Source of the DNA: a virus
Virus record (IMG/VR): IMGVR_UViG_3300045135_002783
Span: 1 to 22,082 of that record
Length of the DNA stretch: 22,082 nt
Strand: one strand, 5' to 3'
Shown here piece by piece: positions 1 through 11,539 of the stretch; position 1 is the stretch's first letter; each line of letters starts with the position of its first letter. The position numbers and the translations under genes were made by a program. Under the pieces are notes generated by a model. It searched no databases. It was not told where the DNA came from and saw nothing but the letters and a program-made list of their open reading frames with translations.

Positions 1-620
1 GATATGTAACAAACGTTCAGACCAGCCTGTGCCCAGTTCACCGCAAGATTCTGCAAGAACAAACTCTTACCTGCGCCTGATCCACCTGCAAAGATGTTTA
101 GTTCTCCACGGTTGAAACCGCCAAACAGTTTCTTGTCGAGGTTCTGCCAGCCTGTGCTGATCTGCCCGTTGTTTGCCTTGAGTGCCTCTAGTCTTCCTTT
201 AGGATCCTCAAAGTAGTCTGTACCGAGATCACGTGTCAGTCCCACGTTCACTGCGTCCTTGACCATGTCCTCCACAGGAGCATAGTCGCCCTTTTCCAAT
301 AAGTCTGCTGACTGTAGTATCGCACGTTCCAGTGCCTTGTGTCTCGAGAATGTTTCAAATTCGTCTAGTAGCCAATTGAAATGGCTCGGGTCTAGGTCTT
401 TTGCTGATTTCAACTTTATGTCATGCTTTGCGTTCACTTGTTCAACCTCTGGCATGACTTTGTATTCGTCCATGTAGTCTTTGACGAACTTGGCAATTGG
501 TTGCAGTTTTCGATCAAAAGATTCCGGTTTGAATATATTCTGCGCTCTAGCAAATGATTCCGCATCTGCCAAAAGCATTTCTATATAAAGTTTTTGTACA
601 TCAAATGTGTATTCAGCCAT
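1..620 (-). CDS. 41: T4 gp41-like replicative DNA helicase (DnaB family), C-terminus cut by window edge
   Basis: This is the N-terminal 206 residues of a RecA/DnaB-fold replicative helicase; the rest lies beyond base 1. The first ~150 residues are a helical N-terminal domain. Next come a GGFNRGELNIFAGG segment and a Walker A motif, GGSGAGKS, at residues ~179-186, which is the T4 gp41 arrangement. In T4, gp41 forms the hexamer that unwinds the fork and works with primase gp61. The ATG at 618-620 follows a GGAG ribosome binding site about six bases upstream and overlaps the end of the radical SAM gene by 8 bases, so the two are probably translationally coupled. Primase gp61 lies two genes upstream, which supports the assignment. 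I am confident of the helicase family; Walker B and the hexamer motifs are outside the window and cannot be checked. Confidence 0.9.
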   Translation of the reverse strand, partial: MAEYTFDVQKLYIEMLLADAESFARAQNIFKPESFDRKLQPIAKFVKDYMDEYKVMPEVEQVNAKHDIKLKSAKDLDPSHFNWLLDEFETFSRHKALERAILQSADLLEKGDYAPVEDMVKDAVNVGLTRDLGTDYFEDPKGRLEALKANNGQISTGWQNLDKKLFGGFNRGELNIFAGGSGAGKSLFLQNLAVNWAQAGLNVCYI

Positions 621-1521
621 TTTTTACTCCGCATTGTATTTTACAACAATCGTGTGCAGATGTAAATTGTTTTGTTGAATTAAAAAATTCAACCACATCC
701 GACCTTTGCAAAATATCTTGTAGTGTGTTGTTTCTAATATTGAAATTTGCTTGTTTTGGTGAAAAAATGTTCTTGTACTTGTATCTATAGGTGCCCATCC
801 AACAGCAAGGATAAAAGTCGCCTTCTGCGTCTATATAAAGGTCAGAACTTGGTTTGTCATTTACCAAACAAGCAGGACTCATTTGGGTTCGGTAGTCTTT
901 GTCAATCAAAACTGACTCCTGATGCTTGTAGTATTTGTCAACATATTCGTCGTCAGGCATCAGGTCCTTTTGTCCTAACCATCTATCGCTCTGCTCTAAT
1001 CTGAAATGATCAAAACCCAAAATCTTTGAAAAATCCTGTGCTTGTTCTATCTGATGTTGATTGTGTTTGAATACAATGAACTTCCAAATCAATTTACATT
1101 TACTAAACGACATGACATTTACAGCCTCTATTATTGTGTGCCATTTAGAATTTTTACGATAGATGTGATTGGTATCCTCTAGACCGTCTATGCTAAATGT
1201 AATTGAATCTTTTTCTGTCAGTAGGACAGATAAACTTGTCCACCAAGTTTTACTTCTCGATGAACCGTTTGTTATAATGCTTATCCTACAGTTGTTATCT
1301 TTTAATTTACGAATAAGTTCTAAGAACTTAGAATGATATATAGGATCTCCGTTGTTGCCACACAGTTCGATGTTAGCATTGGCACCCACAAAAGATACAA
1401 GATTGTCTACATCAATTTCATGTATAGATCGAGTCTTGAACTTTTCATAGAACCAAGTCCTATCACATAGGCTACACGCCAGGGTGCATTTACTTGTAGG
1501 TTCAACGTGGAAACTAACCAT
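613..1521 (-). CDS. Radical SAM/SPASM-type enzyme, substrate unknown
   Basis: The 302-aa protein carries the radical SAM cluster motif Cx3Cx2C at C12, C16 and C19 (KCTLACSLC), a GGEP-like strand-2 segment (ELCGNNGDP, residues 53-60) and an ITNGSS strand (~83-88). The C-terminal third has further cysteines at 218, 239, 240, 292, 293 and 297, which fits an auxiliary Fe-S site of the SPASM/twitch type. Such enzymes cleave S-adenosylmethionine to a 5'-deoxyadenosyl radical and often modify peptides or small molecules. It overlaps the primase stop and the gp41 start by 8 bases each, so it is wired into the priming/helicase operon. No precursor peptide gene is visible next to it. The family is clear; the substrate is not. 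A link to replication is only positional inference. Confidence 0.85.
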   Translation of the reverse strand: MVSFHVEPTSKCTLACSLCDRTWFYEKFKTRSIHEIDVDNLVSFVGANANIELCGNNGDPIYHSKFLELIRKLKDNNCRISIITNGSSRSKTWWTSLSVLLTEKDSITFSIDGLEDTNHIYRKNSKWHTIIEAVNVMSFSKCKLIWKFIVFKHNQHQIEQAQDFSKILGFDHFRLEQSDRWLGQKDLMPDDEYVDKYYKHQESVLIDKDYRTQMSPACLVNDKPSSDLYIDAEGDFYPCCWMGTYRYKYKNIFSPKQANFNIRNNTLQDILQRSDVVEFFNSTKQFTSAHDCCKIQCGVKNG

Positions 1522-2527
1522 ACATCTTCCTCTTCAGGTCAATTTTAAGTTTGGTACTTTCTGCTGTTTTCAAAATAGATTGTATCGTGTACAGCCTCCC
1601 ATAATTCTTTACTGCATCTGCAACATCATTGATACTGTTATCCCATTCAGGAAACGCCACGCTCCATCCAAACTCTGTCGCCTGATCAATCAATTTTTCT
1701 CCAGGTGCATCTCTGTCCGGTACAACAATAACTCTTCTTCCAAGATTATTAATTAACTCTCTTTGTGTGTCATTTATCTCTGACCCCAGTATGCTGACTC
1801 CAGAAACGGCAATGGCATCAAAAGGCCCCTCAGTGACTATAACAAATTTCCTTGCCCAATCCTGTGCGTCCATGTTAAACACGTACCCTGGCCATACGTC
1901 GGTGTAATATTTTACACCACGCGATTCTTCAAATATTCTTCCTGTGTAACCAACAATGTCACCCCTCCAATAGAATGGTATCAACAGACGTTGGTGTATG
2001 TCCCACATCTTGTCTGGAGAGTACATGAAATCATACCAATCAGGACCGATGCCTCTATCTCCTAGGTATTTCAGTAGTCCATCAATTTTTTTCCATTGCG
2101 GTTCTGTCAAGTCGTTTCCGATATATTTCTCTAGCCAAATATCAAGTTTGTGTGTGTTTTTTGGCAGTGCTTTGTTTTTAAAGTTTACAAATTTCTTTTT
2201 CTCATACTTGATGTCGTTCTCTTCTTCACGCATAGCCTCTATGGCCATCTTCTTTATTGTGTCGTCGGGTATGCCGATGTAGCCCATGAACTGCCTCATC
2301 TTGTACGTGAGCTTCCTGCCGATCACGTAACTGGCCTTGAATCCACAATTGAAGCAGTGATAACTTACTGTTCCGTCTGCACTGGTCATTATGCCACCAC
2401 GTTTCTTTTTGTCTGCCGTCTCGCCGTTGTGTACGCAACAAGGCGCATTGAAAGATATCCAGCCACTTGGAGTTTTTTTCCTAGCCGCAGGTAGACTTGT
2501 CAGAATAGTAGATTGGATCAGGTTCAT
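1514..2527 (-). CDS. 61: T4 gp61-like DNA primase
   Basis: At 337 aa it is close to T4 gp61 (about 340 aa). An N-terminal zinc-binding module is visible at C30/C31, H33, C58 and C61 (APCCVHNG ... YHCFNCGF). A TOPRIM domain follows with the glutamate in VTEGPFDAIAV (E233, D237) and the DxD motif VVPDRDAPGEK (D271, D273). Gp61 synthesises the short RNA primers for lagging-strand DNA and binds gp41. The gene is followed by a radical SAM gene and then gp41, overlapping the former by 8 bases. The start at 2527 is forced: a TAG lies in frame two codons upstream and no other ATG precedes the zinc module. There is no Shine-Dalgarno at normal distance, and the -10 of a strong promoter ends only eight bases before the ATG, so the mRNA may be nearly leaderless. 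Confidence 0.92.
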   Translation of the reverse strand: MNLIQSTILTSLPAARKKTPSGWISFNAPCCVHNGETADKKKRGGIMTSADGTVSYHCFNCGFKASYVIGRKLTYKMRQFMGYIGIPDDTIKKMAIEAMREEENDIKYEKKKFVNFKNKALPKNTHKLDIWLEKYIGNDLTEPQWKKIDGLLKYLGDRGIGPDWYDFMYSPDKMWDIHQRLLIPFYWRGDIVGYTGRIFEESRGVKYYTDVWPGYVFNMDAQDWARKFVIVTEGPFDAIAVSGVSILGSEINDTQRELINNLGRRVIVVPDRDAPGEKLIDQATEFGWSVAFPEWDNSINDVADAVKNYGRLYTIQSILKTAESTKLKIDLKRKMYG

Positions 2528-3364: not shown

Positions 3365-3739
3365 ATGAACGAAATTTTTTACACCTTAAGGGATAAATTT
3401 CCCTTTTTAAGCCTGATCAGAAAGGGCGATTTGGAATACGTTGGCATTGTGCAGAATGAAGATGCAAATGTTATAAGTTTTTACGATTATGGAAGGCTTA
3501 TGATGCCAGCGGACAAGATGCGTTTTTTAAAGTGTGGAGAGACCTGGTGGCATGAGTCTAATAGAAAATTACCAATCAACATCTTTTTGAAAGGACAATT
3601 TAGGTATTTCAGATCGACGTTAGTAAGTTTAAATTCCAAAGATGTAGAGATAGTGCATGGACCTACCGTAAAACTGTCTCAAATTTCAAAGAAACGGGTG
3701 AAGAGAAGGACAATCCAACTAGTTCGTAAACCTACCTAA
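3365..3739 (+). CDS. Conserved hypothetical protein, 124 aa
   Basis: A small basic soluble protein read against the surrounding minus-strand genes. It begins MNEIFYTLRDKFPFLSL and ends in a strongly basic stretch (SKKRVKRRTIQLVRK, ~residues 107-121) that could bind nucleic acid. A WWHESNRKLPINIFLK segment (~60-75) is the most distinctive part. I recall similar proteins in marine T4-like phages but no function. No catalytic motif, cysteine cluster or membrane segment is visible. It diverges from the structural gene with a 32-base gap and converges on the 92-aa gene, overlapping its stop by 8 bases. The ATG at 3365 follows a weak purine run (GATAGAG). Confidence 0.7.
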   Translation: MNEIFYTLRDKFPFLSLIRKGDLEYVGIVQNEDANVISFYDYGRLMMPADKMRFLKCGETWWHESNRKLPINIFLKGQFRYFRSTLVSLNSKDVEIVHGPTVKLSQISKKRVKRRTIQLVRKPT

Positions 3740-4010
3740 TCACAGTCAAAAAAAAAGATCGCTGTCTGCGATCATATCTAATCTTTATTCCCCTCGGAGC
3801 CCAAATTTCCTGCCAGTATGGCAGTTCAACATCGACAAAATGTTGATCTAGTTGTCCTTCTTTGTTAAGCACCTTTACGTTGTACTTGTTGCCTGCCTTT
3901 ACTTGAGCCGATAAGAATGCAGACAAGTCGACCACTGCTTGGGTATCACCTAGGTCTTTGATCTGTATTGGAAGTTTTTTTCTAAGTCTTTTAGTTTTTT
4001 GATGTTGCAT
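3732..4010 (-). CDS. Hypothetical protein, 92 aa
   Basis: A small protein with a very basic N-terminus (KTKRLRKKLPIQIKDLG) and a basic C-terminus ending RRQRSFFLTVIR. The middle contains short beta-like segments. I do not recognise the family. The ATG at 4010 is preferred over an in-frame TTG one codon earlier; it overlaps the end of the mini-DnaE gene by 20 bases, so the two are probably co-transcribed and coupled. The oddity is at the 3' end: a strong intrinsic terminator for this strand lies inside the last codons, with its U-tract ending about 14 bases before the stop codon. Terminated transcripts would therefore lack a stop codon. Confidence 0.6.
   Translation of the reverse strand: MQHQKTKRLRKKLPIQIKDLGDTQAVVDLSAFLSAQVKAGNKYNVKVLNKEGQLDQHFVDVELPYWQEIWAPRGIKIRYDRRQRSFFLTVIR
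3748..3773 (-). terminator. Rho-independent terminator, minus strand
   Basis: On the minus strand a perfect 6-bp stem GATCGC/GCGATC with a 5-base loop (AGACA) is followed directly by nine T residues. In the plus direction there is no comparable T-run after the hairpin, so it mainly ends transcription coming from the replication operon at 9412. It lies inside the last codons of the 92-aa gene. Confidence 0.75.
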
Positions 4011-4581
4011 CAAAACTATATTTAGCTCTGCTCAGTAAATTCATTTGGACAACTATGGCCTGTGCATATGCTATGGCGTGGGACTTCTTGAAAAAATAAG
4101 ATCCATCGGTTGGACGAATCCATACTTCGTTCAATATATCTTTCCAGTCCTTGTACATTAGATGCCTTTTTGCAGGACGTATGATTGCTAGTACAGCCGC
4201 AAGTTGTTCAATATTTCGTGGCTCCAACTTTGAAACGATGTTGTAATGGCCGTTTAGGTGGAAAAGTTTCTCAACAGTCTTTGGATTTTTAAGCATGTCC
4301 CAATCTGGTTCCTGTATCATCAACTCTACCAATTCTTGTTCAGATTTGACATCTTTATAGATGTTCACATTCAACATGTCTATTTTAAAATATCCTCTGT
4401 CCTCGGCCTTTTTGTAGTCCAGAGTGCTGTGTCCCGTAACAGGGTGTTCCGGACAAGCATGAAAGTAAACACCTGTTTTATGTTTTTCTGCCTTGTTGTC
4501 TTTTATGATTGTTGCTGGTGTGTGTTTGAACAGTTTCAGCACACCGTCTCTGTCATAGAAGTCTATGTCTACGTCAGGCAT
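3991..4581 (-). CDS. Miniature DnaE-related protein (DNA polymerase III alpha palm/thumb remnant)
   Basis: At 196 aa it is about a sixth of bacterial DnaE, yet several DnaE landmarks follow in the right order. PDVDIDF at residues 2-8 matches the DnaE PDFDVDF motif, whose first two aspartates are catalytic. KHKTGV (33-38) and HPVTG (46-50) match KHAAGV and HPVT. GYFKIDML (63-70) matches VKFDFLG, which holds the third catalytic aspartate (here D68). LFHLNGHYNIVSKLEPRNIE (106-125) matches FQLESRGM...LKPDCFED, LAAVLAIIRP (127-136) matches IVALVALFRPGP, and KKSHAIAYA (165-173) matches NKSHSAAYA. The PHP domain, most of the fingers, the beta-clamp motif and the OB fold are absent. Activity cannot be inferred; it may be an inactive remnant or a repurposed factor. 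It sits in the replication operon, sharing one base with the gene before it (TAATG). Confidence 0.75.
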   Translation of the reverse strand: MPDVDIDFYDRDGVLKLFKHTPATIIKDNKAEKHKTGVYFHACPEHPVTGHSTLDYKKAEDRGYFKIDMLNVNIYKDVKSEQELVELMIQEPDWDMLKNPKTVEKLFHLNGHYNIVSKLEPRNIEQLAAVLAIIRPAKRHLMYKDWKDILNEVWIRPTDGSYFFKKSHAIAYAQAIVVQMNLLSRAKYSFDATSKN

Positions 4582-4814
4582 TAGTGTACACTCCCTTTGT
4601 TTTTCTCATTGTATTTGATGAACTGTTCTTTGCTTCCTGGATCCAACACCTCAATGACGTCAAGCAGTTTTCTGTAACCTTCTGTATTCAAGTAGTCTTT
4701 GTCCATATCCGGCATTATCACTCTTCCTATAGATCCGTCATCCTTGATAATCACAGCACAGTCGCCATCTTCAAATTTCAAATCGTCATTTATTTCTAAT
4801 TTGATCTTAGACAA
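4581..4814 (-). CDS. Conserved hypothetical acidic protein, 77 aa
   Basis: A small acidic protein (SKIKLEINDDLKFEDGD start; CAVIIKDDGSIGRVIMPDM at ~19-37) with no cysteine cluster or membrane segment. The IIKDDGSIGRVIMP stretch looks like a beta-hairpin and is the best landmark for searches. I recall comparable short proteins in marine T4-like phages without known function. It overlaps the zinc-finger gene by 8 bases and abuts the mini-DnaE gene through a TAATG junction, so it is a firm operon member and could act with the mini-DnaE protein; this is inference from position only. Confidence 0.65.
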   Translation of the reverse strand: MSKIKLEINDDLKFEDGDCAVIIKDDGSIGRVIMPDMDKDYLNTEGYRKLLDVIEVLDPGSKEQFIKYNEKNKGSVH

Positions 4815-5493
4815 TTTTGGCCTCTCTTGCTGTGTCTTGCACCAGCATGTGATCTGCTGGATAACTTTTCAACTTGCTTGGCCAGAAACTTGGATTTATA
4901 AATTTTTCTATCATTTGTAATTGTTCGTCGTTGAATGATTTTAACATCCTTTTGCCTGCATTGCAACCGAGCAACAACCACGGACTTATTTTTCCCTGTT
5001 GTATATGAGCTACCGCTCTGTTAGTGTTAACCAATCTGAAATAGTCTGACCACTGTGCGTTTTGTTCGTTTGCCCAATCCATCATTGTTGTGATGCTCCT
5101 TTGGAGGGCCGCCTCAACTGGTTCAGTTTTTAATGTTTCAATCAAGTATACTTCGTATAAATCATCTCTTGCCCAATGATCTAATTTAATTTTTGAGCGA
5201 AGCACATAGTCGATATATTTTTCTGGATACAACGGATTTATGTGCATGATGTACCTGCCAAATTTTACAAATGCATTATAGTATGCACTTTTGACAAAAT
5301 CATCATAGGTTTTAAGTTTTGAACCGTGTTGATGAATTTGATAGAACCTTTGGAATACCATGAAAGCATTCACTACCCATTTTTCATCACGTTGTAAATA
5401 TCTGCGTTTTGGTTCACATAAGTGTACTTGAAGTGTCCTTGCCTTTGCAAAGTTCTTGCCACAGTACGTGCATTTATTTTGACTCGATGCCAT
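4807..5493 (-). CDS. Zinc-finger protein of the marine T4-like replication operon, 228 aa
   Basis: The N-terminus has a single C2HC-type zinc finger: C8, C11, H24 and C26 (CTYCGKNFAKARTLQVHLC), followed by a basic EPKRRYLQRDEKW segment. The remaining ~190 residues are mainly alpha-helical and aromatic-rich (FVKFGRYIMHINPLYPEKYI; KLDHWARDDLYEVYL), with no catalytic signature. A finger plus helical body suggests nucleic-acid binding. From memory, proteins with this layout are widespread in marine T4-like phages but uncharacterised. The start at 5493 is supported by an excellent ribosome binding site (GGAGGAAC before ATG). It overlaps the gp62-like gene by 20 bases and the 77-aa gene by 8. Confidence 0.75.
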   Translation of the reverse strand: MASSQNKCTYCGKNFAKARTLQVHLCEPKRRYLQRDEKWVVNAFMVFQRFYQIHQHGSKLKTYDDFVKSAYYNAFVKFGRYIMHINPLYPEKYIDYVLRSKIKLDHWARDDLYEVYLIETLKTEPVEAALQRSITTMMDWANEQNAQWSDYFRLVNTNRAVAHIQQGKISPWLLLGCNAGKRMLKSFNDEQLQMIEKFINPSFWPSKLKSYPADHMLVQDTAREAKIV

Positions 5494-6152: not shown

Positions 6153-6639
6153 AGTCGACCTGTTCACATTGTCTGGAAATATCTTTTACAAAGTAGGCAC
6201 ATAGAGGTTTTGCACCATCAGTTAGTGGCACGGCCAACATCTGCCCTGACTTTATTTTTGGGAAGTACCATTTGACCTCGGTGTATATATCAACTATGTC
6301 TATTGGTAGGAATTCTGGTTTTGCACTTGATAAAGGATTAAACGTGAATGCATCGAATCCTCTATCGTTCAAACTCGTGATAGGTAAGAGATGCATTTCC
6401 TGTTGTCCTGCTTCACCTATCAGCATCTTCCAGTCAAGAGGCATTTTGATTCTGTGTTCACCAATTTCGAGAACCGCCGCGGGCGCATTGAAACTTTCTA
6501 AGAAGATCAACGGAATGTAAAAGAAATCTGGATTGCTTGGGTCCGAGTTGTCCAAAACTGCAAATCTCAAGTTTTCATCTACCCATTCTGGTATTTTTTC
6601 TAATTTGTAGGTCCTGTCCTCAAGTGTAAGAATTTTCAT
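6136..6639 (-). CDS. Conserved hypothetical protein next to UvsW, 167 aa
   Basis: A soluble alpha/beta protein starting MKILTLEDRTYKLEKIPEW. Landmarks are FAVLDNSDPSNPDFFYIPLI (~26-45), a MPLDWKMLIGE segment (~70-80), TSLNDRGFDAF (~88-98) and an LCAYFVKDISRQCE segment near the C-terminus. From memory, very similar proteins occur directly after uvsW in marine T4-like phages, without a known function. No nuclease, ATPase or zinc motif is visible. The gene overlaps uvsW by 20 bases and the 81-aa gene by 17, so it is probably translationally coupled to UvsW and may support recombination-dependent replication; that role is inferred from position only. Confidence 0.7.
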   Translation of the reverse strand: MKILTLEDRTYKLEKIPEWVDENLRFAVLDNSDPSNPDFFYIPLIFLESFNAPAAVLEIGEHRIKMPLDWKMLIGEAGQQEMHLLPITSLNDRGFDAFTFNPLSSAKPEFLPIDIVDIYTEVKWYFPKIKSGQMLAVPLTDGAKPLCAYFVKDISRQCEQVDYGSVW

Positions 6640-8083
6640 AATCTATCTTTTCTATATTATACGGATAATTTGCTTCTTTGTAAAACTTTTTTCTTTGGCC
6701 GAGGTGTCTTTTTGCAAACTTGCAACTGCTTGTGATATCCCAAATCTGCACACTGTCTTTATCTTCTGCCTTTCTGATCCCTCTTCCTATGCTTTGAATC
6801 ACCCTAACAAACGACTTACCTGGCTCTATTAGGACAAGATTAAAAATCCTAGGAATATTAATGCCAACAGCGGCAACTCCATATGTGGCAATAATAATTT
6901 TATTTTGGCTAGTAGATACTTCATCGTACTGCTCCTTTCTATCTGTGTTTTTTGTTGACCCAGACACAAACACTGAGTCCTTTAATTTCTTCTCTAGTAT
7001 TTCACCTGCACTTATTCTATCTACTAGTATCAAAGTATTTCCTGATGTTGCGATACTTTGTATTGTCTGTGCTACCCAAGTCATTCTTGTTTGGTCTGTG
7101 GTTAACCATTTCAATTCTTCTCCATATGTTTTGAACTGTGGATGGTCCTGTGTCTGCAACACATTCACGTGGCAGTTTGCCAACACACCTTTGTCTTGCA
7201 ATTCACTCGCCTGTATTCTATTTGCAACCTCACCAATGCTACATTTCAGGCCCATGAATTCATAATCTGCCTTTGGTACAGTACCTGTGAGACCCCAACG
7301 TATTCCACAGTGTGCAAATGGACCAGTCAATAATCTCTTCAACACGTCTGCTTTTGCCATGTGCACCTCATCAATTATTATTGTGTTGATGCCTTGTATT
7401 GCTTCAAGGAACTCTGTTGTGTGTTCGTCTTTGGCTTTCTTTTCCAGAACGTTCAAGCTCTGCCATGTCGCGATTGTATTGTACCTACCAAGTTCCTTCC
7501 TGTCACCATAGTAGACGCCAGTATCTAAATTACACGTGAGAAAGTCTTCCTCGGTCTGAGTCACTAAACTTTTGTTTGGAACAATAGTTAATGTACGTCC
7601 GTATGGTTCAACCAATTGACACAATGCCGCAGTAATAATTGTTTTACCTGCTCCCGTGGCAATCTCCTGTATGCACTGAGGATTCTCTATAAACTTGTTT
7701 ATGGTTTCAACTTGGTAGTCACGAAGTTGTAATTTCTGTCCTGCACACGGATGATTGTCTGGCCACGTGATGTGCGACAAGTAGTCCTTATCTACTTTTT
7801 TAAATTCATAATTGTGTTGTTGACGTCTGTCTTCGAAGTCCACATATACGCCGCCTTCTTCTAGTATAGGAAGTATTTGGTCAACTAGGTTGAGGTACGT
7901 GGTGCCTCCCAATCCAAAGAAACTTACCTTACCATCCCATCTGCCCAATTTCACTGCTGGGAGATGCCTTGCATATGGTATCTCATATTTGAATTTGTTT
8001 GACAGTCTTTTGCGCCATTCGAGAGATAGATTCTCAAACTTCACATTTACTTCGTCTTTTATCACTAATTTACAACTACTCAT
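6620..8083 (-). CDS. uvsW: UvsW-type SF2 DNA/RNA helicase
   Basis: At 487 aa it is close to T4 UvsW (503 aa). Superfamily 2 motifs are all visible: a Q-like LQLRDYQVE (118-126), Walker A ATGAGKT (142-148), DEVH box (238-241), LTGT motif III (265-268), a TYGVAAVGINIP motif V region (400-411) and the arginine-finger motif VI QSIGRGIRK (430-438). The N-terminal ~100 residues form the small UvsW DNA-binding domain (LPAVKLGRWDGKVSFF). UvsW unwinds R-loops, remodels branched DNA and switches T4 from origin- to recombination-dependent replication. The gene abuts the HARP-like gene (stop at 8084) and overlaps the 167-aa gene by 20 bases. Confidence 0.93.
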   Translation of the reverse strand: MSSCKLVIKDEVNVKFENLSLEWRKRLSNKFKYEIPYARHLPAVKLGRWDGKVSFFGLGGTTYLNLVDQILPILEEGGVYVDFEDRRQQHNYEFKKVDKDYLSHITWPDNHPCAGQKLQLRDYQVETINKFIENPQCIQEIATGAGKTIITAALCQLVEPYGRTLTIVPNKSLVTQTEEDFLTCNLDTGVYYGDRKELGRYNTIATWQSLNVLEKKAKDEHTTEFLEAIQGINTIIIDEVHMAKADVLKRLLTGPFAHCGIRWGLTGTVPKADYEFMGLKCSIGEVANRIQASELQDKGVLANCHVNVLQTQDHPQFKTYGEELKWLTTDQTRMTWVAQTIQSIATSGNTLILVDRISAGEILEKKLKDSVFVSGSTKNTDRKEQYDEVSTSQNKIIIATYGVAAVGINIPRIFNLVLIEPGKSFVRVIQSIGRGIRKAEDKDSVQIWDITSSCKFAKRHLGQRKKFYKEANYPYNIEKIDYENSYT

Positions 8084-9458: not shown

Positions 9459-9476
9459 AATTGGTAATTTTGTCAA
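9449..9476 (-). promoter_or_regulatory. Consensus sigma70-type promoter for the replication operon
   Basis: On the minus strand a perfect -35 TTGACA (9476-9471), a 16-bp spacer and a perfect -10 TATAAT (9454-9449) lie before the HARP-like gene at 9412. Transcription should begin near 9442, leaving a leader of about 30 bases with a weak AGGT ribosome binding site. Both hexamers match the consensus exactly, as expected of an early phage promoter that uses unmodified host RNA polymerase. Confidence 0.8.
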
Positions 9477-9478
9477 CC

Positions 9479-9946
9479 ATGCAAAGAAAGAAAACACATA
9501 GTAGAATAAAAAGTTTTAGAAAACAACTGCAACGGAACCTTGAGACCAGGGGCGACGTCCGAGAGTATAAACCTACAGGGATGGCAGTTGCACATTGGTT
9601 TACCAAATTAAACACAGTGCTTTTTGGTAATAGATTAGGGCGTGTTCATATTGAAATCAAAAAGTTACACAAGGACTGGGGCAGATGTGTGGCTCATTGG
9701 GATGGCAGACATGCACCAGCAGGAAGATTTAATCAACGGAAATTGCCACATCATATTGTTGAAGGATATTACATACAACTACATTGTAAATTTCCTACAT
9801 GGAAAGACTTTATCGAAACACTTGCTCATGAGATGGTGCATCTGTATCAGATGACTGTATTGAAGGATCCTTATTCAAATCACAATCAAAACTTCTATGC
9901 TTTTAGACCTAAGTTTCGGTCTGCTGGTTTAAAACTTTATCGTTAA
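9479..9946 (+). CDS. SprT-like zinc metalloprotease, 155 aa
   Basis: The protein has the zincin motif HEMVH (H117, E118, H121) within TLAHEMVHLYQM and a downstream histidine in SNHNQNFYAF (H135) as the probable third zinc ligand, the SprT/Spartan arrangement. A DWGRCVAHWDGR segment (~66-77) corresponds to the strand region before the catalytic helix. SprT-family proteases in eukaryotes cut DNA-protein crosslinks; phage members are uncharacterised. The N-terminus is very basic (RKKTHSRIKSFRKQLQRN). ATG 9479 is chosen over a TTG at 9461, which lies in the promoter region. It is on the opposite strand to all neighbours: divergent from the replication operon, and overlapping the end of the glycan operon by 38 bases in convergent orientation. 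Confidence 0.85.
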   Translation: MQRKKTHSRIKSFRKQLQRNLETRGDVREYKPTGMAVAHWFTKLNTVLFGNRLGRVHIEIKKLHKDWGRCVAHWDGRHAPAGRFNQRKLPHHIVEGYYIQLHCKFPTWKDFIETLAHEMVHLYQMTVLKDPYSNHNQNFYAFRPKFRSAGLKLYR

Positions 9947-10670: not shown

Positions 10671-11539
10671 TTGAGGTATTTCTCCTGCAGTCGTTTTTTG
10701 ATTCTTTGCCATGGCAATCCCTGTCTAATCTCGTCTTCGAACCATTCAGTGTAGGCAAGCCTGTTGGCCCACTGCATTCTATTTGGCATAGCAGGTGTGT
10801 TTATGTCTGAAATTGACAAGTTACCCACATCATGGCATAAACTAGATTCTGATACAAACACCGGAATTCCGTTTATCACTGACTCTATGGCAGGATTAGA
10901 ACTATGGTTGATGATTGCCCACGCACGGCCTAGCACAGCCTTGAAGTCTGTGTCGTCGTATGTTTTGTAGTCTCGCTTAGGCAGACGTACTTTGACGTTC
11001 TTGAAATCACTTTCCTTAAATGGGATCTGATTTCGTGGATGTGGCCTCACTAGTATTGGACGAGATGTGTATTTTCTGATTTCTGCAATTTGGTTTTTGA
11101 TCCAGGTGCCCATTCTAGGTAATCCCTTCCATTGTTCCGATTGGTCATGTTGTCCACATATTACTATCATCTCTCCTGTTGGATTCCACGGCTTAAATTC
11201 GTGTCTAAACAATGGCCAACGTTTGTCATCAAACTCTTGATTGGCAAAATCTGCATCTCTGTTTATGCCATTGATTCCTATCTTGAAACTTTGATTGCGT
11301 CTTAGACCGCCCACTTCTATGACAACGACCGGTTTGCCTTCTGTCCTGTACTTTTCCCAGATTGGTCTGTAAGATTGCATCCTGCCTCGCCATAACACAC
11401 TCCATATTACAGCCACGTCGGCGTTGGTCGACCTATTTTCGTAAACTTGGTCTCCGGCGTCACGAACGCTTTGGATAAATGCGTCAAAAATTGGTTTTGA
11501 ATTCAATGGACCGTAGTCCGTCCATATTTCTAGTTTCAT
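10667..11539 (-). CDS. RPHP/HSS-type glycosyltransferase-like protein, paralogue A
   Basis: A 290-aa protein of the type annotated as capsular polysaccharide biosynthesis or GT-B-like transferase. Landmarks are KPWNPTGEMIVICGQ (~116-130), ILVRPHPRN (162-170), WAIINHSSNPAIESVINGIP (207-226) and a C-terminal LAYTEWFEDEIRQGLPW. The RPHP and HSS-x-x-x-ES patterns sit where GT-B enzymes bind the donor nucleotide sugar. Three relatives occur in this window (15372-16355, 16345-17160, 19656-20468) with the same ordered blocks. It begins with an ATGA overlap with the SDR gene and ends with one into the GNGPS gene. Donor and acceptor are unknown; the family-level call is firmer than the reaction. Confidence 0.7.
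   Translation of the reverse strand: MKLEIWTDYGPLNSKPIFDAFIQSVRDAGDQVYENRSTNADVAVIWSVLWRGRMQSYRPIWEKYRTEGKPVVVIEVGGLRRNQSFKIGINGINRDADFANQEFDDKRWPLFRHEFKPWNPTGEMIVICGQHDQSEQWKGLPRMGTWIKNQIAEIRKYTSRPILVRPHPRNQIPFKESDFKNVKVRLPKRDYKTYDDTDFKAVLGRAWAIINHSSNPAIESVINGIPVFVSESSLCHDVGNLSISDINTPAMPNRMQWANRLAYTEWFEDEIRQGLPWQRIKKRLQEKYLK

Follow-up and report, generated by a model that had tools for sequence, protein, structure and literature searches.

Gene organization around a Pol III fragment

The window, i.e. the whole stretch of DNA analyzed here, comprises 22,082 nucleotides of the IMG/VR virus record IMGVR_UViG_3300045135_002783. It carries an ORF for a 196-amino-acid protein, referred to as C-half in the following, surrounded by genes for a UvsW-type helicase, a gp61-type primase and a gp41-type helicase. 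This setting had been recognized as a T4-like replication operon in the initial annotation of the sequence, and the profile matches of the neighboring genes agree with it:

3..620, minus strand: gp41-type (DnaB-like) helicase, N-terminal part, cut by the window edge (NCBIfam, ORF)
1514..2527, minus strand: gp61-type DNA primase, operon neighbor (phrog_47 DNA primase, E = 1.8e-37)
3365..3739, plus strand: 124-aa gene, phrog_11637, directly after C-half (PHROG, ORF)
3991..4581, minus strand: 196-aa protein, phrog_11778, predicted C-terminal (metal-binding) half of a split minimal Pol III alpha (profile, conservation, AlphaFold model)
4581..4814, minus strand: 77-aa gene upstream of C-half, its stop overlapping the C-half start (TAATG; ORF)
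4807..5493, minus strand: 228-aa gene, phrog_11058, weak C2H2-like match, conserved neighbor (Pfam, PHROG)
6620..8083, minus strand: UvsW-type DNA helicase, operon neighbor (phrog_16 DNA helicase, E = 1.7e-75)

The C-half ORF starts with an ATG that overlaps the stop codon of the preceding gene, and AGGGAG lies shortly before this start. In RaK2, uvsW is annotated at the equivalent place, and an opposite-strand gene of ~120 aa lies at the same place in six of the eight named jumbo phages with C-half; in XacN1 and RAS14 it is displaced by one gene in the direction away from C-half. A SprT-like protein (E = 1.5e-6) is encoded at 9461-9946 (plus strand) of the window.

The lineage of the window is marine and known from metagenomes alone, and the C-half family is abundant in marine viral contigs. 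We listed 80 close relatives with proteins 83-100% identical to the C-half of the window. The gene order in this clade, read as far as each contig extends and with occasional insertions and missing small genes, is u442, UvsW, four to five small genes (the 228-aa and 77-aa genes among them), C-half, the opposite-strand gene, a 264-aa gene, the primase, in some contigs a radical SAM gene, and the helicase. C-half is a standing part of this marine T4-like replication operon. The radical SAM gene, at 613-1521 (minus strand) in the window, is inserted between primase and helicase in just part of the clade.

The 196-aa protein is related to the alpha subunit of Pol III

As a single sequence, C-half is only weakly recognizable as DnaE. 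DnaE was matched in NCBIfam with E = 0.2, and the finger family PF17657 in Pfam with E = 0.018 (14.8 bits, below the cut-off of 22); no Pfam match to a PHP domain was detected at E ≤ 1. This agrees with the initial annotation, according to which the PHP domain is missing and little of the fingers is left. A phmmer search of the PDB returned triosephosphate isomerases alone (E 0.63-1.9), which are chance matches, and no Pol III. The proposed homology to DnaE was confirmed by the PHROG match (phrog_11778 ‘DNA polymerase’, E = 1.2e-64) and by a profile of 86 homologues, which gave seven matches up to E = 10 among 177,635 distinct PDB sequences, all of them Pol III alpha (best E = 0.017).

The expected resemblance of the predicted structure to DnaE and PolC palms was found as well. 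With the AlphaFold model of C-half (mean pLDDT 92.2), the 14 best rows in VIA, whose lists leave room for other folds besides Pol III, were Pol III or PolC chains (Z 6.2-9.8), followed by a row with Z 3.5. Foldseek gave three matches at E ≤ 0.001, all to Pol III alpha (best 6.5e-4). In VIA, the model aligned to residues 400-781 of E. coli DnaE (2hnh, Z 8.9, 3.6 Å, 183 residues), 461-841 of Taq Pol III (3e0d, Z 9.8, 3.7 Å, 188 residues) and 971-1362 of PolC (3f2b, Z 9.4, 4.6 Å, 193 residues).

The protein is widespread. Using the window protein alone, at least 569 IMG/VR relatives were confirmed, and tblastn retrieved 63 phage records, all with at least 80% of the protein covered. The C-half of Atu_ph07 shares 52.9% identity with the window protein.

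Catalytic residues of C-half

All seven DnaE motifs quoted in the initial annotation were located in the DnaE order, beginning at residues 2, 33, 46, 64, 105, 127 and 165 of C-half, and residues 3, 5 and 68 are Asp in the window sequence. The key positions are:

4573..4575, minus strand: codon of D3, aligned with E. coli DnaE D401 (profile alignment to DnaE 400-421; DnaE numbering checked on its sequence)
4567..4569, minus strand: codon of D5, aligned with E. coli DnaE D403 (Asp in 216/216)
4378..4380, minus strand: codon of D68, aligned with E. coli DnaE D555 (Asp in 220/220; alignment to DnaE 539-559)
4063..4089, minus strand: KKSHAIAYA, aligned with NKSHSAAYA of the DnaE fingers (alignment to DnaE 752-767)

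The C-half profile aligned, in order, to residues 400-421, 539-559, 596-641 and 752-767 of E. coli DnaE. When the segments 400-421, 539-559 and 752-767 were aligned separately, they scored -0.9, -4.2 and 2.7 bits; since single segments score little, it is their order that provides the evidence for the alignment. The conservation predicted for the three catalytic aspartates was complete: of 220 distinct homologues, four have gaps at D3, D5 and D7 and the other 216 all have Asp at these positions, and K66, D68, R135, P136, K138, H168 and Y172 do not vary in any of the 220. The palm part with the three catalytic aspartates is thus present in C-half by conservation, profile alignment and model.

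The compressed spacing noted earlier is also real: D68 follows D5 by 63 residues, whereas in E. coli DnaE D555 follows D403 by 152, a stretch in which the thumb of DnaE lies. About 110 residues of the DnaE fingers, between 641 and 752, were not matched by the C-half profile. The GS nucleotide-binding motif is absent from the chain, which starts one residue ahead of PDVDIDF.

In relatives, the missing part of the palm is encoded by a second gene

A second short Pol III ORF was found in all eight named jumbo phages with C-half, where it matches positions 13-98 or less of a 260-position Pol III alpha model. In the relatives, this N-half is a separate gene for a protein of ~175 aa (phrog_11127) that ends with ‘..GRGSS...EFL(K)’ and whose active-site residues, the GxGRGSS loop, are invariant in 67 sequences. 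Its profile matched nine PDB sequences up to E = 1, all of them Pol III alpha (best 5e-4). The N-half model (pLDDT 90.7) aligned in VIA to residues 279-395 of DnaE (4jom, Z 11.0) and 823-966 of PolC (9qrn, Z 11.6); 16 Pol III rows preceded the next one at Z 2.4, and the first ~75 residues had no match in these rows. Foldseek returned weak E-values (best 0.035), and its 15 best matches were all Pol III.

On E. coli DnaE, the N-half profile ends at residue 392 and the C-half profile begins at residue 400. In chains common to both lists, the two models align to abutting stretches, 2-5 residues apart. These abutting profile limits and model alignments suggest that the two proteins tile one palm. 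N-half ends one residue past E-F-L in 62 of 67 sequences, and C-half starts no more than six residues ahead of DxDID in 85 of 86. Judging by sequences and predicted structures, C-half is the C-terminal, metal-binding half of a Pol III alpha palm that is cut between ‘..EFL’ and ‘PDxDIDF’. The annotated start of gp074 of Atu_ph07 (NC_042013), at 8073, omits the catalytic PDIDIDF, which an in-frame ATG at 7992 restores (L082:7992-8072).

The initial annotation had seen the 196-aa protein as a bacterial replicase trimmed to a core. Its homology to DnaE stands; it is, however, not a trimmed whole but a half that lacks the nucleotide-binding part of the palm. Because the chain starts at PDxDIDF and relatives encode the other half as a gene, we rejected a reading as a whole replicase, and the suggestion of a self-contained core or minimal nucleotidyltransferase could not be upheld either. 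Upstream genes of the window were considered as the source of the missing half and rejected on their Pfam and PHROG results, as the 77-aa gene had no match in either collection, and the 228-aa gene had weak matches to zinc-finger and unknown-function families alone.

Co-occurrence of the two halves and of family B polymerase

With the Atu_ph07 N-half as query, tblastn retrieved 123 phage records. Among the 60 C-half and 60 N-half records listed (of 63 and 123, respectively), 59 of the C-half records were also N-half records, the exception being the 109-kb record PP728206. IMG/VR contigs chosen for N-half (75-462 kb) had C-half in 9 of 19 cases, and those of at least 200 kb in 7 of 8; one 359-kb contig (G055) had an N-half match and no C-half match. 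N and C distances were correlated in a mirror-tree comparison of 17 genomes (r = 0.70, Mantel p = 0.0001), which may merely reflect shared genome history, as an interaction is not separable from it.

Matches to family B polymerase (PolB) were found in all eight named jumbo phages with C-half and in 14 of the 19 N-half contigs from IMG/VR; none was found in the 40 marine-clade contigs, all of which are fragments. Family A polymerase was detected in none of the eight named phages, and PolA was therefore rejected as their replicase. A pattern search detected both motif A (DxNSLYP) and motif C (DTDS) of PolB in five of these eight, so that a dead PolB with the split enzyme as sole replicase is not supported. 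By pattern, PolB of SCTP-2 was without motif C and PolB of PA5oct and Vibrio 2.275 without motif A, for which inteins or the search patterns themselves may be responsible; an intein-split PolB is described for MIJ3, a relative of PA5oct (PMC6892783). PolB proteins of six phages had no tblastn match in the loci searched, including the marine N-half set (L558-L632).

Evidence for a partner in the marine clade

The N-half profile detected no separate N-half in 39 contigs of the window’s clade, all fragments of at most 91 kb, nor in the 22-kb window. A genome scan with the window protein confirmed none of 593 pattern stretches, and a profile scan of GTDB contigs confirmed C-half in 11 of 51, all on contigs of metagenome-assembled genomes (MAGs). 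An origin of C-half from a host gene was rejected, since the seven loci compared carry the operon of the window and are read as phage contigs binned with hosts; the comparison left out three loci of less than 4 kb and L542, which comes from the same MAG as L538.

N-half was present in 5 of the 10 MAG assemblies with C-half, and one 89.5-kb MAG contig holds both halves, about 50 kb apart. In one bin, C-half is 85% identical to that of the window; the N-half of this bin had 75 matches in IMG/VR, 74 at 65-93% and one a 28-residue fragment. Among the matches listed, the window’s C-half clade was also present in 23 of 66 samples with relatives of this N-half, versus 4 of 78 samples from another listing of N-halves, a few of which belong to the marine cluster. 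From these sequence comparisons, a partner N-half in the window’s phage is likely. One MAG assembly (G072) contains two different N-halves on two contigs (L553 and L556), perhaps from two phages.

A single-chain DnaE in the same operon

In 8 of 39 clade contigs, the match to a Pol III alpha model fell in one ORF, 565-576 aa long unless truncated by the contig end. The product of ~563 aa is a PHP-less DnaE, in which Pfam detected no PHP domain. It is present in 8 of the 23 marine contigs that reach the helicase end, and 12 of the 15 contigs without it extend at least 3.5 kb past this end. The gene follows the helicase directly (L029), after an endonuclease III-like gene (L001), or after the latter and one further gene (L069). 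The endonuclease III-like gene between helicase and single-chain DnaE in L001 (11388-12071) has an HhH-GPD match (E = 1.6e-18) and suggests a repair cassette. In a set of 80 single-chain proteins (79 marine ones and that of LR756508.1), the residues aligned to G363, S364, D401, D403, K553, D555, R709 and H760 of E. coli DnaE are the same in all 80, and that aligned to R710 in 79.

Over 6,661 bp, the window shares 99.2% identity with a contig carrying the single-chain DnaE, in which the gp41-type helicase is followed by an endonuclease III-like gene and the 563-aa DnaE. The window’s phage therefore probably has this gene, found at L103:1441-3132 and with 310 relatives in IMG/VR, just to the left of window position 1. 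In L004, a contig otherwise without the gene, the helicase is immediately followed by 23 residues (11091-11159) that match the single-chain DnaE at 91% and may be what is left of a lost gene.

LR756508.1 (L276), a huge uncultured phage of 484 kb, has the single-chain DnaE and matches to PolB; neither split half and no other Pol III match was detected there at E ≤ 0.001, and clear PolB catalytic motifs were not found by pattern. We see even odds that some marine jumbo-type phages run two Pol III-type enzymes at the same time, the split one and the single-chain DnaE, with a replicase that is probably of family B in addition. This DnaE may have been gained alongside the split enzyme for repair or translesion synthesis, or it may be a relative, still unsplit, of the form that gave rise to the split. 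In the clade phages that have this complete DnaE, the split enzyme looks dispensable, which counts against the function proposed below.

Proposed function of the split polymerase and alternatives

We propose, with a probability of roughly 0.7, that C-half is one of two genes of a minimal Pol III alpha whose products together rebuild the palm and extend DNA beside a family B replicase. In this enzyme, C-half would supply the three metal-binding aspartates, the lysine of KxD and a short helical finger remnant (RPxK, KKxHxxxY), while the ~175-aa N-half, encoded tens to hundreds of kilobases away, would contribute the GxGRGSS nucleotide-binding loop. The halves would most likely associate without a covalent link to form the polymerase palm. 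The weakest link of the explanation, by itself a tentative suggestion, is what the complex would do: most likely it would extend DNA as a second polymerase working alongside the family B replicase, in gap filling, repair or one special replication step.

The two halves could also assemble into a short-range nucleotidyltransferase that adds or removes one or a few nucleotides, for instance at ends or on a primer, because the parts gripping duplex DNA are absent. The short spacing of D5 and D68 (63 residues, versus 152 in DnaE) and the unmatched finger residues (about 110) would fit such an enzyme; we nevertheless regard it as unlikely, as the fixed context of primase and replicative helicase and the retained RPxK and KKxH point to DNA synthesis. 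Less probable is a catalytically silent DNA-binding or regulatory replisome subunit derived from DnaE. Without the GS loop, C-half indeed has no complete active site alone, but a silent subunit would be expected to lose both the metal-binding residues and the loop of its partner, whereas D3, D5, D7, K66 and D68 as well as the GxGRGSS loop of N-half are invariant. The purely DNA-binding or regulatory role considered in the initial annotation leaves this invariance unexplained.

C-half is present in each of the 36 single-chain loci that extend 2 kb or more upstream of the primase, which raises the question whether C-half of the marine clade works with the single-chain 563-aa DnaE, as its accessory or competitor subunit, instead of with N-half. 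We consider this quite improbable, since the single-chain protein possesses a complete active site of its own, 15 of the 23 contigs extending to the place of its gene lack it beside the helicase yet retain C-half, and clade-related N-halves exist in IMG/VR and in the bin with the 85% identical C-half. Finally, the short length of C-half and the complete DnaE in some relatives might suggest a decaying fragment of a once-complete phage DnaE. This is already contradicted by the at least 569 relatives in IMG/VR, by the coverage of at least 80% in 63 phage records, and by the fixed start and invariant motifs across distant phages, and we give it hardly any credence.

With its palm divided into a nucleotide-binding and a metal-binding part that are encoded by widely separated genes, the split enzyme would be a mechanistically odd polymerase. 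Since the ends of both halves are sharply defined, a two-component reconstitution is straightforward to attempt, and the phages with C-half include the cultured, laboratory-tractable 121Q, RaK2 and PA5oct.

Comparison with known systems

A split minimal Pol III has been described for group 2.2 jumbo phages, among which Atu_ph07 is named (Iyer et al. 2021, PMC7824862). It consists of two proteins, of which the N-terminal one binds NTP and the C-terminal one Mg2+ and template, and the active two-chain polymerase was only predicted there. Earlier genome papers had noted a truncated alpha subunit (PMC5259590) and an alpha subunit (PMC6102473); for the relative Callisto, a ‘DNA polymerase III’ (ORF111) is listed, and the split is not commented on in the text available to us (PMC11079468). 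Among the papers listed in our search of later literature, PMC7824862 was the only one found to describe the split enzyme, and no biochemical test was found since 2021; the terms ‘DNA polymerase’, ‘polymerase III’ and ‘split’ are absent from the main text of a 2026 review (PMC13282480).

C-half shares the palm fold and the metal-binding aspartates with DnaE and PolC. In contrast to them, it lacks the GS motif, the PHP domain, most of the fingers and the long insertion that separates the aspartates, and nothing follows after DnaE position ~781. The single-chain phage DnaE resembles C-half in being a phage-encoded Pol III alpha but has the full set of active-site residues, with the GS and Asp motifs in one chain and longer fingers. 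The DnaE of LR756508.1 is 38.6% identical to the marine 563-aa protein, and actinophage DnaE-like proteins are more distant.

The window shares with the group 2.2 system the C-terminal family, the N/C split with genes far apart and the T4-like setting. Unlike in group 2.2, its N-half and PolB would lie outside the fragment, and part of its clade has the single-chain DnaE in the operon, which is not mentioned for group 2.2 in the available text of PMC7824862. On sequence grounds, the window protein is the C-terminal part of the enzyme of PMC7824862, and C-half was thus already described in kind in 2021. New here are the two models tiling the same solved structures, the large conservation set, the evidence for a partner N-half in this marine clade, and the single-chain DnaE that occurs alongside C-half.
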